Assembly: GCF_034048115.1 (NCBI RefSeq)
Contig: NZ_CP139145.1
Location: 2,542,001 to 2,606,000, forward strand
Source: Pseudarthrobacter sp. IC2-21
Lineage (GTDB): Bacteria > Actinomycetota > Actinomycetes > Actinomycetales > Micrococcaceae
Reading direction: 5' to 3'
Length of the DNA stretch: 64,000 nucleotides
Shown: positions 4,343 through 21,680 of the stretch, one piece after another
Layout of the letters: the number at the start of each line of letters is the position of its first letter
Position numbering within the stretch: the stretch's first letter is position 1
Translations under genes and position numbers: made by a program
The notes under the pieces: model-generated
Told to the model about the DNA's origin: nothing
What the model saw: the letters and a program-made list of their open reading frames with translations, nothing else
Databases searched by the model: none

Positions 4343-5392
4343 CTAAAGCGCTGCGGCGATGGCGTCACCCACGGCGCTGGTGCTGCGTGCGCCGCCGTCG
4401 CGATTTTCGACGTCGGCGATCACGGCCGCTTCAATCTTCCGCGCCGCCGCGGCGTAGCCAAGGTGGTCCAGCAGGAGCGCCGCCGACAGGATGGCCGCGG
4501 TGGGATCGGCCTTCTGCTGGCCGGCGATGTCCGGCGCTGACCCATGGACCGGTTCGAACATGGACGGGGCGGTGCGGTCCATGTTGATGTTGCCCGAGGC
4601 AGCCAGCCCGATGCCGCCGGTGATGGCTGCGGCCAGGTCGGTCAGGATGTCGCCGAAGAGGTTGTCCGTAACGATGACGTCAAAGCGGGACGGGTCGGTG
4701 ACCATGAAGATGGTGGCCGCATCGACGTGCAGATAGTCATGGGTGACCTCCGGGAATTCCTGCGCCACAGCTTCGACGGTGCGCTTCCACAGGTGGCCCG
4801 CGTAGACCAGCACATTGTGTTTGTGCACCAGGGTGACGTGCTTGCGTTCCCGGGCGCCGGCGCGGCGGAACGCGTCGCGGACCACGCGCTCCACGCCGTG
4901 TGCCGTGTTCAGGGAAACTTCGGTGGCGACCTCGTGCGGCGTGCCCGCGCGCAGGGTGCCGCCGTTGCCAACGTAAGGCCCTTCGGTGCCTTCGCGGACC
5001 ACGATGAAATCGATGACGCCCGGGTTGGCGAGGGGGCTGCCCACCGTTCCGTACAGGCGTGAGGGACGCAGGTTGACGTAGTGGTCCAGGCTGAAACGGA
5101 GCTTCAGGAGCATCTCGCGCTCGATAATGCCCGACGGAATCCTGGTATCGCCGGGGGCTGCGCCCACCGCGCCGAAGAGGATGGCATCCCGGGTACGCAG
5201 GTCGGCGAGGACCTCATCCGGGAGGGTCTCGCCGGTGGCCAGCCAGTGCTCGGCACCGAGCTTGTAGTGGGTCTGCTGGAGGTCCACACCCTCGGCGGCT
5301 AAGGCCTTCTCGAGGACCTTCAGCGCCTCAGCGATGACCTCGGGGCCAATGCCGTCACCGGGAATTACTGCGAGATTAATCGATGCGCTCAT
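4343..5392 (-). CDS. leuB: 3-isopropylmalate dehydrogenase
   Basis: 349-residue NAD-dependent decarboxylating dehydrogenase; it oxidises 3-isopropylmalate to 2-oxoisocaproate in leucine synthesis. N-terminal [26 protein letters not shown] (substrate arginines), [11 protein letters not shown], and VDAATIFMV with [15 protein letters not shown] (Mg-binding aspartates) are all present. The C-terminal [12 protein letters not shown] binds NAD. Length and motif order match actinobacterial LeuB. Start at ATG 5392. A promoter and an inverted repeat that recurs ahead of ilvD lie 10-56 nt upstream, so regulation with the other BCAA genes is likely. Confidence 0.97.
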
Positions 5393-5401
5393 ACTCCAAG
5401 A

Positions 5402-5429
5402 ATATTAAGTCAATCCGCATGCCGGACAA
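5402..5429 (-). promoter_or_regulatory. leuB promoter candidate
   Basis: Read on the minus strand: a -35-like TTGTCC (5424-5429), a 16-nt spacer and a -10-like TAATAT (5402-5407), ending 10 nt before the leuB ATG. The short distance implies a very short leader. Confidence 0.5.
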
Positions 5430-5433
5430 TCAG

Positions 5434-5448
5434 TCTCACTTACTGAGA
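5434..5448. promoter_or_regulatory. TCTCA-N5-TGAGA operator candidate upstream of leuB
   Basis: Perfect 5-bp inverted repeat TCTCA CTTAC TGAGA, immediately upstream of the leuB -35 element. The same arrangement (TGAGACT followed closely by TGTCC) occurs ahead of ilvD at 20286-20302. In Corynebacterium (LtbR) and Streptomyces (NdgR/AreB), IclR-family regulators control leu genes; assigning this site to such a protein is inference. Confidence 0.55.
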
Positions 5449-16182: not shown

Positions 16183-18090
16183 TCAGTCCTCCTCTTCCCA
16201 TTCCGGGGTCATATTGCGGGCAACCTGGATCTGGTCGTTACTCACTCCGGAGGGGACCATCGGCCACACCATCGAATCGGGGCTCACCACAAAGTCGATG
16301 ACCACGGGACGGTCATTGATTTCCAGTGCCTTCTGAATGGTTGCATCGATATCCTCGTCCCGTTCACAGCGGAATGAGGCGCAGCCGTAGGCGTCCGCCA
16401 GCTTGACGAAGTCCGGGATCCGGGCCGTCTCATGGCCGGTGTTGAGGTCCGTGTTCGAGTAGCGGCCCTCATAGAAGAGCGTCTGCCACTGACGGACCAT
16501 GCCCAGTGAGGAGTTGTTGATGATGGCAACCTTGATGGGGATCTTGTTGATGGCACAGGTGGCCAGTTCCTGGTTGGTCATCTGGAAGCAGCCGTCGCCG
16601 TCGATCGCCCAGACCACCCGGTCCGGCTCCCCCACCTTGGCGCCCATGGCAGCCGGTACGGCGTAACCCATAGTGCCTGCGCCGCCGGAGTTCAGCCAGG
16701 CGTGCGGGCGCTCGTACTTGATGAACTGGGCCGCCCACATCTGGTGCTGGCCCACACCGGCGACGTAAATCCCTTCCGGGCCGGTCAGCGCGCCGATGCG
16801 TTCGATGACGCGCTGGGGGGCCGTGAGTCCGTCATCCGGTTCGGTCCAGCCCAGCGGGTACGTTTCCTTGAGGTTGTTCAGGAAAGCCCACCAGGTGGTG
16901 AGGTCAGGGGTTCCTGCCGCTTCGAACTGGGAACGGAGGGCTTCGGTGAGTTCGGGGATGATTTCCTTGACCGAACCCACAATCGGAACGTCGGCCGCGC
17001 GGTTCTTCGAGATCTCCGCGGGATCGATGTCGGCGTGGATCACCTTGGCATGGGGCGCGAACGTCTTCAGCACACCGGTTACGCGGTCATCAAACCGTGC
17101 CCCGAGGGTGATGAGGAGGTCCGACTGCTGCAGGGCTGTCACGGCGGACACCGCGCCGTGCATGCCCGGCATGCCCACGTGCTGCGGATGGGAGTCCGGG
17201 AAGACGCCGCGGGCCATCAGCGTGGTGACAACCGGAGCGCCCGTCAGTTCAGCCAGGGCGCGGAGTTCTGCTGACGCGTGGGCCTTGACCACACCGCCGC
17301 CCACGTACAGGACCGGCTTGCTGGCAGCAGCAATCAGCTTGGCCGCTTCGCGGACCTGCTTGTTGTGCCCGCGGATGACCGGCCGGTAGCCCGGGAGGTC
17401 AATCTTCGGCGGCCAGGAGAATGTCATCTGGCCCTGCTGGGCATCCTTGGCCACGTCCACCAGCACCGGACCGGGACGTCCCGTGGAGGCCAGGTGGAAG
17501 GCTTCGGCCATGACGTGCGGGATGTCGTTGGGGTCGGTCACCAGGAACGAGTGCTTCGTGATCGGCATGGTGATGCCAACAATGTCGGCTTCCTGGAAGG
17601 CGTCGGTGCCGATCACACCGCTGGACACCTGGCCGGTGATGGCCACCAGCGGCACGGAGTCCATGTGGGCATCCATGATGGCGGTAACGAGGTTGGTGGC
17701 ACCGGGGCCGGAGGTGGCAATGCAAACCCCCACCCGCCCGGTGACCATGGCGTAGCCTTCCGCGGCGTGGCCGGCTCCCTGTTCGTGACGGACCAGAACG
17801 TGATTCATACTGGAGGCCATCAAGGGGTCATAGGTAGGCAGGATCGCGCCACCGGGCAAACCAAAAATATCGTCCACGCCGAGTTCTTCGAGCGAACGGA
17901 CAATAGCTTCTGAGCCGGTCATCACCGTTGGGGGTACAACGTTGTTCGGCCCAAGGACAGGAGAGACAGCAGCAAGGTCGGTGACGACGGCGGCGTGGTC
18001 AGCCGTTTTGTCGGCACGTTCCGGAGCCTTGGGGGCTCCAGCGGACTTGGTAGCCATCAGCGAGGGGCTGATCGGCGATCCTTTGCTCAT
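16183..18090 (-). CDS. ilvB: acetolactate synthase large (catalytic) subunit
   Basis: 635-residue ThDP enzyme condensing two pyruvates, or pyruvate with 2-oxobutyrate. The activating glutamate is E103 in [17 protein letters not shown]; the ThDP/Mg motif is [15 protein letters not shown] followed by [10 protein letters not shown] 55-residue N-terminal Ala/Pro/Ser-rich extension precedes [23 protein letters not shown] 18090 has AAGGAAG 6 nt upstream. First structural gene of ilvBNC, preceded by a leader peptide and an intrinsic terminator (see 18138-18273), which indicates control by transcription attenuation. Confidence 0.97.
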
Positions 18091-18137: not shown

Positions 18138-18174
18138 AAAAAAACCCCTCAGCCTGGTGGCTCTTCGAGGGGTT
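18138..18174 (-). terminator. ilvB attenuator (intrinsic terminator)
   Basis: On the minus strand AACCCCTC (18174-18167) pairs with GAGGGGTT (18150-18143). The stem is extended by AGCC/GGCT across a 4-nt loop and followed by seven U residues (18144-18138). It lies 48 bp before the ilvB start codon and 28 bp after the leader-peptide stop: textbook spacing for an attenuator. Confidence 0.9.
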
Positions 18175-18201: not shown

Positions 18202-18273
18202 CTATGCTGCCACGCGCTTGGTAAGGACGACGGATACACCCAAACCGGCGCCGACGGTAACGGTTGCGATCAT
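18202..18273 (-). CDS. ilvB leader peptide (attenuation)
   Basis: A 23-codon open frame with AGAGGGAAAA upstream. It begins MIATVTVGAG and ends LTKRVAA; 9 of 23 residues are Val, Leu or Ile (six Val, two Leu, one Ile). It stops at TAG 28 bp before the attenuator terminator. Near its 3' end GCGCGTG (minus strand; plus 18211-18217) is perfectly complementary to CACGCGC (plus 18175-18181) just ahead of the terminator, so ribosome position on the Val-rich codons can change folding. An equivalent leader control is known for ilvBNC in Corynebacterium glutamicum. The peptide is too short for ordinary gene calling and probably has no function as a product. Confidence 0.85.
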   Translation of the reverse strand: MIATVTVGAGLGVSVVLTKRVAA

Positions 18274-18324
18274 GCAGTCAGTTTTCCCTCTGAGTGAGAT
18301 GCATGTCAACGGGGGTGGTACACA

Positions 18325-18339
18325 TCTCACCATATGGAC
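18325..18339. promoter_or_regulatory. degenerate TCTCA-N5-TGnnn site upstream of ilvB leader
   Basis: TCTCA CCATA TGGAC: one perfect half-site and a poorly conserved second half compared with the perfect sites at leuB and ilvD. A TTGACA (minus strand, plus 18304-18309) lies 15 bp downstream and may be the -35 of the ilvB promoter. Confidence 0.3.
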
Positions 18340-18366
18340 TTCATTGTCCACCAATTGGCCACGTCC

Positions 18367-18432
18367 CCCAACTAGGTAGCAGCAAGTGTCGTTTTGAGGG
18401 CCCAAAACGACACTTGCTGCTACCTAGTTGGG
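18367..18432. repeat. dispersed palindrome, copy 1 (CAACTAGGTAGC family)
   Basis: A perfect 30-bp inverted repeat (18367-18396 and 18403-18432) with a 6-nt loop. Outer ends are CCCAACTAGGTAGC; inner ends are GTCGTTTTG. Copy 2 at 38556-38623 has the same outer and inner segments but a different middle. It lies just downstream of ilvD and upstream of the ilvB promoter, where it could also stop ilvD transcription. Confidence 0.85.
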
Positions 18433-18468: not shown

Positions 18469-20190
18469 CTAGCCGCAGTAGGCGCCGGTGGAGGCGCTGT
18501 GCACGAGCTTGGCGTACTTGGCGAGCACACCCTTGGTGTACCGGGCCGGGAGCGGCTCCCAGCCCACCCTGCGGGCCTCGAGTTCCGCCTCGTCCACCAG
18601 GAGGTCGAACGACCGTGCTGCGATGTCCACGCGGATGCGGTCACCGTCCTTGACAAAGGCGATGGGGCCGCCGTCGGCTGCTTCCGGCGCGACGTGCCCG
18701 ATGCAGAGGCCGGTGGTGCCGCCGGAGAAGCGGCCGTCGGTCAGCAGCAGGACGTCCTTGCCCAGCCCGGCGCCCTTGATGGCGCCGGTAATGGCGAGCA
18801 TTTCGCGCATGCCCGGACCGCCCTTGGGGCCTTCGTAGCGGATGACGACGACGTCGCCGGCCTGGATCTTGCCGTTGTCCAACGCGTCCAGCGCGCCCTG
18901 CTCACGTTCGAACACGCGGGCGGTGCCTTCGAAAACGTCGGCGTCGAAGCCGGCGCTCTTGACCACGGCGCCTTCGGGCGCCATGGAACCGTGCAGGATG
19001 GTGATGCCGCCGGTCTTGTGGATCGGGTTGTCCATGGCGCGCAGGATCTTGCCGTCGAGGTCCGGCGGGTTAATGGCTGCCAGGTTTTCGGCCACGGTCT
19101 TGCCGGTGACGGTGAGGCAGTCGCCGTGCAGGAGCCCGGCGTCGAGCAGTGCGCGCATGATGACGGGCACGCCGCCGATCTTGTCGACGTCGGTCATCAC
19201 GTAGCGGCCGAACGGCTTCAGGTCGCCCAGGTGGGGGATCTTGTCGCCGATGCGGTTGAAGTCCTCAAGGGTCAGCTCAACCTCGGCCTCACGGGCAATC
19301 GCGAGCAGGTGCAGGACCGCGTTGGTGGAGCCGCCAAAGGCCATGGTGACGGCAATGGCGTTCTCGAACGCCTCCTTGGTCAGGATGTCACGGGCCGTGA
19401 TGCCCAGGCGGAGCAGGTTAACAACCGCCTCGCCGGACTTTCGTGCAAATTCATCACGACGGCGGTCTGCCGAGGGCGGAGCGGCGGAGCCGGGCAGGGA
19501 CATGCCGAGGGCCTCACCGATGCAGGCCATGGTGTTGGCCGTGTACATGCCGCCGCAGGCGCCTTCACCCGGGCAGATGGCCTTTTCGATGCGGGTGAGG
19601 TCCTCCATGCTCATCTTGCCAGCGGCGCACGCGCCCACTGCTTCGAAGGCATCAATGAGGGTGACTTCCTTTTCGGAGCCGTCCTCGAGCTTGACCCAGC
19701 CGGGCATGATGGAGCCGGCGTAGAGGAAGACGCTGGCCAGGTCCAGGCGGGCGGCCGCCATCAGCATGCCGGGCAGGGACTTGTCGCAGCCGGCCAGCAG
19801 GACCGAGCCGTCGATCCGCTCTGCCTGCATGACGGTCTCAACGGAGTCGGCGATGACTTCGCGTGAGACCAGGGAGAAATGCATGCCTTCGTGGCCCATG
19901 GAGATGCCGTCGGAGACGGAGATGGTGCCGAACTGCATGGGGAACCCGCCGCCGGCATGGACGCCTTCCTTGGCGCCCTGCGCGAGGCGGTTAAGGGAGA
20001 GGTTGCAGGGGGTGATCTCGTTCCATGAACTGGCAACGCCGATCTGGGGCTTCGCGAAATCGTCATCGCCCATGCCTACGGCACGGAACATGCCACGCGC
20101 CGGGGCAGCGTGGATGCCGTCGGTGACCACCCGGCTGCGAGGTTTGATGTCGGGCTTGTTCTCAGTTTTTGCTGGGGCGTCGGCGCTCAT
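18469..20190 (-). CDS. ilvD: dihydroxy-acid dehydratase
   Basis: 573-residue Fe-S dehydratase producing the 2-oxo acid precursors of Val and Ile. Cluster-binding cysteines are C62 (EITPCNLSL), the Cys of [12 protein letters not shown] and the Cys of [24 protein letters not shown] and [14 protein letters not shown] near the C-terminus are family signatures. Start is ATG 20190, with only a weak ribosome binding site. It is transcribed separately from ilvBNC: about 100 bp upstream is an inverted repeat shared with leuB, and a large palindrome follows the stop. Confidence 0.97.
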
Positions 20191-20285
20191 GGCTCAAAGT
20201 CTATGACTCCCGCGCCAATGCGGAAGACCAAAATCCCCCGTTTTGGGCCGATTCCATGAATATTTCGACCATATTGTGGACAGTA

Positions 20286-20302
20286 GTCTCAGATATTGAG
20301 AC
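20286..20302. promoter_or_regulatory. GTCTCA-N5-TGAGAC operator candidate upstream of ilvD
   Basis: A perfect 6-bp inverted repeat, GTCTCA GATAT TGAGAC. Read toward ilvD it is followed by TGTCC 3 nt later, as at leuB (TGAGACT then TGTCC), so the operator and -35 region are conserved as a unit. An AT-rich -10-like stretch lies around 20257-20265. Confidence 0.6.
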
Positions 20303-20441: not shown

Positions 20442-21680
20442 ATGCCATCCGGACTGAAAGGCCCAGCTGTGGATATTGTCTTCTGGATCATTGTGATTGT
20501 GCTGATTGTCGGCATTGTGTGGTGGCTGCTGAACCGAAGCAACTCTTCGGATAAGGGCGGCACGGCTCAGGGCGGCGCGGCTCAGGGCGGCATGCCGGCC
20601 CGGCGGGCAGAGGGCGCCCTGTCCGGCGGAAGCGCTGCGGCCTCAGCGGAAGCTGCCGGCACCGCCGGCCTTCCCGGTGCCGCAGGTTTTGGCGCCCCTG
20701 CGGAACCCACGCCGCCCACCACGGCCGAGGAGGACCTGGTGCCGTCCGATACGTCCGGCCACCAGTCCGCCGGGACATCCGCCGTGGCATCGGAGTCCGC
20801 CGGCCAAAGAAACGTTGGTGGAGGGCGCGAGGCCAGCACTGCAAAGGACTCTGTGGCAGCAGAAAACCCGGAGTTCGGGGCCTCCGCGGCTGAGGCAGAT
20901 ATGCCGGTCGCCGAGGAACACCGCGAGGCTGAAGATTCAGCAACCGGCCAAGAGTCTTCCAGGCAGAGCGGGCCAATCGCCCCCGAGGCTGCCGCCGCCG
21001 GGCCGGGAGCCACAGGCCGCCAGGCCGAGGATGAGTGGGAAACGCAGTGGTCAGAAACCGGCGGCTCGGCCCACCCGGCGGCGACCGGCCTGAGTGGAGG
21101 CGCTGCCGGCGGTGCTGCCGCTGCCGCTGCAGCCGCCGGCTCCGCAGCCTCACCGCGGACTGAATCGGTGCCTGCCGAACCGGCTGCGTCACCGGAGTTA
21201 GCCCCGGAAACAACCGAAGGCACCCACTACGTCCACCACTCGGAGTACACAGACCCGCATGCCCCCACGCTTCCGGGAGCCGAGACTGCGGCGGCGGACG
21301 AGCTGACGAGCGATCTGCCGGCCGGCCCCGCGGGCCATGATTCAGCCACCATGCTCGGGCAGGCGGCGCCGGGCAACGAACCCGGAACGCACAGGGCATC
21401 TCCTGCGGGCCACGAGCCCGCCGCGGAACTTGCCGCCGAACCTGCCGCCGAACCAATCGGCCACCTCGCGGCGGAGCAGCCCTACGGCGCCGGCTCCGCC
21501 TCGCCGGGCCCTGACGGCAGGGGACCTGCAGACTACGCGGTCAAGGGTGACGCCCGCGCGATGGTCTACTACGAGGAAGGGCACCCCGACTATGAGCAGA
21601 CCACGGCAGATGTCTGGTTCGAGTCCGAGGCCCATGCAGAGGCTGCGGGGTTCCGGCCGCCCCGGCGGACGCGCCTCTGA
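20442..21680 (+). CDS. membrane-anchored Ala-rich protein with C-terminal sunset-like domain
   Basis: 412 residues. One N-terminal membrane segment (VFWIIVIVLIVGIVWWLL, about 12-30), then some 300 residues of low-complexity Ala/Gly/Pro/Glu sequence, and a compact C-terminal domain of about 45 residues: ADYAVKGDARAMVYYEEG then ADVWFESEAHAEAAGFRPP. This C-terminal pattern matches the small domain found at the end of several actinobacterial membrane proteins. Function is unknown. A GTG at 20469 (VDIVFW) with AAAGG upstream may be the true start. Overlaps the next gene by 47 bp. Confidence 0.7.
   Translation: MPSGLKGPAVDIVFWIIVIVLIVGIVWWLLNRSNSSDKGGTAQGGAAQGGMPARRAEGALSGGSAAASAEAAGTAGLPGAAGFGAPAEPTPPTTAEEDLVPSDTSGHQSAGTSAVASESAGQRNVGGGREASTAKDSVAAENPEFGASAAEADMPVAEEHREAEDSATGQESSRQSGPIAPEAAAAGPGATGRQAEDEWETQWSETGGSAHPAATGLSGGAAGGAAAAAAAAGSAASPRTESVPAEPAASPELAPETTEGTHYVHHSEYTDPHAPTLPGAETAAADELTSDLPAGPAGHDSATMLGQAAPGNEPGTHRASPAGHEPAAELAAEPAAEPIGHLAAEQPYGAGSASPGPDGRGPADYAVKGDARAMVYYEEGHPDYEQTTADVWFESEAHAEAAGFRPPRRTRL

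Follow-up and report, generated by a model that had tools for sequence, protein, structure and literature searches.

The analysed stretch of DNA (the window, 64,000 nucleotides of Pseudarthrobacter sp. IC2-21) carries genes named by family searches as LeuB, IlvD, IlvB, IlvN, IlvC, IlvE, and SerA. Three of them are central here, and all lie on the minus strand: leuB (3-isopropylmalate dehydrogenase, 4343-5392), ilvD (dihydroxy-acid dehydratase, 18469-20190), and ilvB (acetolactate synthase large subunit, 16183-18090), which is upstream of ilvN and ilvC.

Inverted repeats ahead of leuB, ilvD, and ilvB

A first-pass annotation of this DNA had reported perfect TCTCA-N5-TGAGA inverted repeats ahead of leuB and ilvD, and both were found. 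The leuB palindrome, TCTCACTTACTGAGA, occupies positions 5434-5448 on the minus strand (-56 to -42 from the leuB ATG). The ilvD palindrome, TCTCAGATATTGAGA, occupies 20287-20301 on the minus strand (-111 to -97 from the ilvD ATG), with an extended form, GTCTCA...TGAGAC, at 20286-20302. These are designated putative operator sites A. Reading toward the gene, TGAGACT is followed by TGTCC after 3 nt at leuB and 2 nt at ilvD, as had been noted, but TGTCC had been taken for the -35 element of a shared promoter layout and is instead the first half of a second 15-bp inverted repeat. This second repeat, putative site B, is GTCCGGCATGCGGAT at leuB (GTCCG-N5-CGGAT, 5413-5427, minus strand, -35 to -21 from the ATG), where it includes the supposed -35, and GTCCACAATATGGTC at ilvD (GTCCA-N5-TGGTC, 20267-20281, minus strand, -91 to -77 from the ATG). 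Sites A and B are 21 bp apart, centre to centre, at leuB and 20 bp apart at ilvD.

Candidate promoter elements were selected by eye. At leuB, the candidate -10 is TAATAT (5402-5407, minus strand), and its position would place the transcript start at or beside the ATG, giving a nearly leaderless transcript. At ilvD, the candidate -10, TAGACT (20198-20203, minus strand), lies directly before the ATG and recurs in relatives, so that a transcript from it would be leaderless. By eye, TAGACT appears to be the ilvD promoter in these relatives; it stands seven bases ahead of the ATG, and the putative operators are a further 64-98 bp upstream. Beside ilvD, an ORF at 20442-21680 (plus strand) lacks a Pfam match and carries a 'sunset' domain (NF051437) at its C-terminus.

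The region ahead of ilvB contains three sites at 21-bp steps, and perhaps a fourth, all on the minus strand. Putative site 1 is GGCCA-N5-TGGAC (18346-18360). Putative site 2 (18325-18339) had been described as a degenerate copy of the leuB and ilvD palindrome, and its sequence, TCTCACCATATGGAC, proved to be a hybrid with one GTCCA half and one TGAGA half. Putative site 3, CCACC-N5-TGACA (18304-18318), whose end is the -35 TTGACA, is poor here and reads TGTCG-N5-TGACA in some relatives. The possible fourth site, TCTCA-N5-AGGGA (18285-18299), is weak and lies 40 bp from site 2, over the -10 region. Two further features were observed near this array. A long near-perfect inverted repeat around GTCGTTTTGAGGGCCCAAAACGACAC (18367-18432) adjoins the array between ilvD and ilvB; its core is found in the same place in one related genome (G015) and at two other loci of this genome (L356 and L359), and it is possibly a repeated terminator element. 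The ilvB leader encodes a 23-residue peptide, MIATVTVGAGLGVSVVLTKRVAA (18202-18273, minus strand), followed by a terminator-like hairpin with a T-run (18138-18173, minus strand), and is probably an attenuator. By a script criterion, a short peptide with an I/L/V run of at least three residues precedes ilvB in 28 of 29 genomes, and the whole leader folds only mildly better than shuffles (z -1.66). An Rfam search at gathering scores gave two tRNAs only.

Genome-wide frequency and tandem spacing

The 4.27-Mb genome has just four perfect copies of TCTCA-N5-TGAGA: two are those of leuB and ilvD, one lies in the leuC/iclR intergenic region, and one is in the interior of a 794-aa ORF. When one mismatch was allowed, 30 places were found, compared with 11 for a reversed control pattern. 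The perfect copy in the leuC/iclR promoter supports the earlier suggestion that branched-chain amino acid genes share one operator. The genome scan proposed as a check of this suggestion returned the iclR gene adjoining leuC, whereas leuA and ilvE gave no convincing match.

Sites were scored against the half-sites TCTCA, taken from the window, and GTCCA, taken from the ChIP paper cited below, with a maximum of 10. Because the half-sites are partly derived from the window, this score is not blind for leuB and ilvD; the spacing, the conservation, and ilvB are less affected. With a score sum of at least 17, the only pairs in the window were those of leuB, ilvB, and ilvD at 20/21 bp and one pair at 40 bp, and 20 shuffled windows contained no such pair. 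When the cut-off was relaxed to a sum of 16 with at least 6 for each site, the window had five pairs at 20/21 bp and up to four at single other spacings. None of the 26 one-mismatch TCTCA sites was accompanied at 20/21 bp by a site scoring 7 or higher, and all except L015, L164, and L169 lay within mechanically defined ORFs of at least 100 aa. The best scores at ilvC (8 of 10) and at ilvE, ilvN, and serA (7 each) were not convincing. No site pair was found at leuA in the 14 loci examined of 27. A lone GTCTG-N5-TGGAC was observed about 233 bp upstream of leuA (L389, G000:C1:2140497-2142194, minus strand) in 9 of 11 genus loci.

Measured between centres, the tandem sites are 21 bp apart at three promoters (leuB, ilvB, and iclR/leuC) and 20 bp apart at ilvD. 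In offset profiles across genomes, the best second-site offset was +21 for leuB, +20 for ilvD, -21 for ilvB, and +21 for iclR. Sequences entered these profiles if their best site scored at least 8 of 10, which admitted 52 of 57 for leuB, 25 of 43 for ilvD, 28 of 29 for ilvB, and 104 of 109 for iclR; a second leuB-like gene of genome G036 (L280) was included here and excluded from the pair-conservation counts given below. After removal of similar sequences (42, 25, 18, and 47 kept, respectively), the best offset was reached in 0 of 500 shuffles for each of the four promoters, a result whose significance is overstated because the sequences are related; the shuffles ignore relatedness and keep neighbour frequencies only approximately. 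The 21-bp pair pattern was found at 52 places over 18 genomes, compared with 11 for the control, and among same-genus genomes it matched iclR/leuC in 13 of 13 and leuB in 9 of 13. In this genome alone it gave four places (leuB, iclR/leuC, and two inside ORFs) against three for the control.

Single-site patterns built on GTCCA were rejected as genome-wide predictors. GTCCA-N5-TGGAC occurred at 487 places (control, 464) and the hybrid GTCCA-N5-TGAGA at 98 (control, 98), neither being enriched. Thirty of these 98 places were examined, including all five perfect ones; among the perfect ones, only ilvB had a second site of score 7 or more at 20/21 bp, and two one-mismatch places (L363 and L370) had a partner scoring exactly 7. 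TGAGA-N5/6-GTCCR occurred at 20 places (control, 12), with a TCTCA half only at leuB and ilvD.

The iclR gene beside leuC and conservation of the pairs

The iclR gene lies 10 kb to the left of the window, divergent from leuC, with the perfect palindrome between them. The first-pass annotation had named an IclR-type orthologue of LtbR/NdgR as the likely regulator, and the position of this gene next to leuC and the perfect palindrome in its own promoter agree with that proposal. Two IclR domains were identified above cut-off in its product, the helix-turn-helix (PF09339) and the C-terminal domain (PF01614); the NCBIfam models that matched were all far below their cut-offs, so that no model names it. 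Several Arthrobacter and Pseudarthrobacter genomes encode proteins with 97% identity to it, and it is 72.8-75.1% identical to six Streptomyces and Kitasatospora proteins among the matches listed (S. coelicolor was not one of these), which have the same divergent leuC. A match to the regulator was present in all 29 genomes searched, and leuC was divergent to iclR in 108 of 109 loci, this genome included. The exceptional genome, G021, has no LeuB or IlvD match, and its iclR operator is absent (best match, four mismatches); it is a natural negative control.

In the iclR promoter, the palindrome is perfect and 30 bp before the ATG in 19 of 19 same-genus genomes. Of the 80 named iclR loci considered, the best 80 of 585, 63 carry the palindrome at exactly -30, perfect in 45 of them and with one mismatch in 18; 11 of the other 17 have a copy with zero or one mismatch elsewhere within 130 bp of the predicted start. 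At three Rothia loci the palindrome has at best two to five mismatches. By eye, the promoter block is approximately TTGCRTCTCA-N5-YGAGACGNCARTATC, in which the operator occupies the space between a likely -35 and -10, with the ATG directly after them.

The conservation of pairs at 20/21 bp differed among the four promoters. For leuB, pairs were present in 15 of 19 genus members, in 20 of 28 named genomes (absent from 8), and in 1 of 9 order members of other families (absent from 8). For ilvD, they were present in 15 of 19 genus members, 1 of 7 order members of other families, and none of 17 named genomes, and were thus absent from 23 of 24 sequences outside the same-genus set; the 17 are those of 28 named genomes with a close IlvD, the other 11 having only distant dehydratases. 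The named-locus search covered 28 of 30 loci. Pairs at ilvB were present in 19 of 19 genus members and 6 of 10 order members of other families. Pairs at iclR were present in 19 of 19 genus members, 7 of 10 order members, and 72 of 80 named loci (the best 80 of 585), but the conservation of the second iclR site has a separate cause, since that site shares bases with the likely -10 and the start codon. Shuffled controls gave means of 0-0.10 sequences per set, and pairs at other spacings were found in 0-3 sequences per set, with the exception of 15/16 bp in 8 of the 80 named iclR loci. The expectation that the sites at leuB and ilvD are conserved in relatives was borne out within the genus. The leuB and iclR pairs persist into Streptomyces, and the ilvD pairs are nearly genus-bound.

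These distributions bear on two alternatives. Chance palindromes would suffice for the window taken alone, since 27 of 100 shuffles of the 64 kb contained at least two matches when up to one mismatch was allowed; the genome-wide distribution, the genus-wide and wider conservation, and the fixed spacing leave this explanation with almost no probability. It is also unlikely that TCTCA-N5-TGAGA alone is the operator and the downstream GTCC-type sequence is the -35 region of a promoter. The overlap of leuB site B with the expected -35 position and the lack of genome-wide enrichment of GTCCA-N5-TGGAC are consistent with such an arrangement, but in most genus members site B at leuB and ilvD retains its two half-sites as well as the 20/21-bp distance, and the ilvD copy lies a long way from the recurrent TAGACT -10. 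Moreover, several Streptomyces have at leuB an upstream GTCCA-N5-TGGAC-like site, of the class printed for NdgR ChIP-seq peaks in the excerpts considered below, followed by TGTCA-N5-TGGGA, a -10-like hexamer, and the ATG.

Comparison with NdgR and LtbR and proposed control

Excerpts of the ChIP-seq report on NdgR of Streptomyces coelicolor (PMC4340878) list ilvB, ilvD, leuB, and ndgR-leuC among its direct targets and give a 15-bp 5-5-5 motif. The system described here resembles NdgR in this motif and in the position of the regulator gene next to leuC (leuCD for NdgR), and 15-bp 5-5-5 inverted-repeat sites are present at leuB, ilvB, ilvD, and leuC, as for NdgR/LtbR. One printed NdgR site, GTCCGCCATGCGGAC, assigned to S. 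coelicolor leuB by gene-number order, is two letters from leuB site B. LtbR of Corynebacterium glutamicum, cited in the same report as an orthologue of NdgR, is likewise an IclR-type regulator tied to leucine biosynthesis; the title of the cited paper calls it a repressor, acting on tryptophan genes too. In the excerpts, the printed NdgR motif is GTCCA/TGGAC-like with one site per peak, whereas here TCTCA-N5-TGAGA dominates and the sites are paired. The motif printed for the S. coelicolor peak assigned to ndgR-leuC had no counterpart with up to two mismatches at 12 loci (L240-L251) of Streptomyces, Kitasatospora, Cellulomonas, and others. In their survey of the IclR family, Suvorova and Gelfand (2021, PMC8222616) describe tandem palindromes with centres 18-22 nt apart in 94 orthologous groups, which fits tetramers, and the distances of 20 or 21 bp found here fall in that range. 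The NdgR/LtbR consensus given there is KTYCRSMWYSYGRRM. Compared by eye, the GTCC-type half-sites fit its KTYCR, whereas TCTCA breaks position 2, where T is expected.

A pair was also observed away from the leucine genes in a related genome (L431, G004:C11:71400-73900, positions 1216-1251): GTCCA-N5-TGAGA, N6, and TCTCA-N5-TGACC, at 21 bp, lie directly ahead of a rhodanese-domain gene and are followed by TTTAGACT and the ATG. Since a thiosulfate sulfurtransferase gene is listed among the S. coelicolor NdgR targets in the excerpts of PMC4340878, the rhodanese gene may be a further target.

The presence of two half-site words, of which GTCCA and not TCTCA fits the left half of the published NdgR/LtbR consensus, would also be accommodated by two regulators, the IclR protein recognising the TCTCA sites and a different factor the GTCCA sites. 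We consider this quite unlikely, as ilvB and several promoters of leuB and ilvD have hybrid sites combining GTCCA with TGAGA, and the leading site is of the GTCCA type at leuB of Streptomyces but of the TCTCA or hybrid type in the genus of the window, the spacing being unchanged. From the sites, their spacing, their conservation, and the gene neighbourhood, all directly observed, we infer with a probability of about 0.88 that the palindromes are paired operator sites of the IclR-family NdgR/LtbR orthologue encoded divergently from leuC.

In the proposed mechanism, each 15-bp site (half-site, five free bases, half-site) would bind one dimer of this protein, and two sites at a 20-21-bp distance, which share one face of the helix, would bind a pair of dimers, presumably as a tetramer. 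The half-sites would be TCTCA, GTCCA, or close variants, and could be mixed within one site. The array covers the candidate -35 or the -35/-10 spacer at leuB, iclR, and ilvB, and repression when leucine or the pathway signal is ample is therefore judged likeliest at these promoters, including autorepression of iclR. The ilvD pair is situated 77-111 bp before the ATG, a position at which the protein would more plausibly activate transcription or control a second promoter. The signal is presumably leucine or an intermediate. The position of the sites is no proof of repression: NdgR is described as an activator in S. coelicolor in the excerpts of PMC10331944, and other Streptomyces have a similar arrangement at leuB. 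A broader scheme, to which we give somewhat less than even odds, is that one IclR regulator reads TCTCA and GTCCA freely mixed in two to four tandem sites with a 20-21-bp period, that the composition and number of sites tune each promoter, and that the published single-site motifs caught one of the two words.

For this family the literature already describes the regulon and neighbourhood, the site architecture, and the tandem spacing (PMC4340878 and PMC8222616), and none of the papers searched joined Arthrobacter, IclR, and leucine biosynthesis. The novel elements are the present instance, the arrays found at four promoters, and a half-site, TCTCA, that differs from the published consensus by one letter. 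Altogether, the leucine/valine circuit proposed here is a well-supported and expected extension of the control circuit of Streptomyces and Corynebacterium to Arthrobacter and relatives, with operators proposed to the base. The putative operators occur as fixed-spacing arrays, which make it possible to test directly if two half-site words are recognised by a single IclR protein, and they suggest that the Streptomyces motif may describe just part of each operator.
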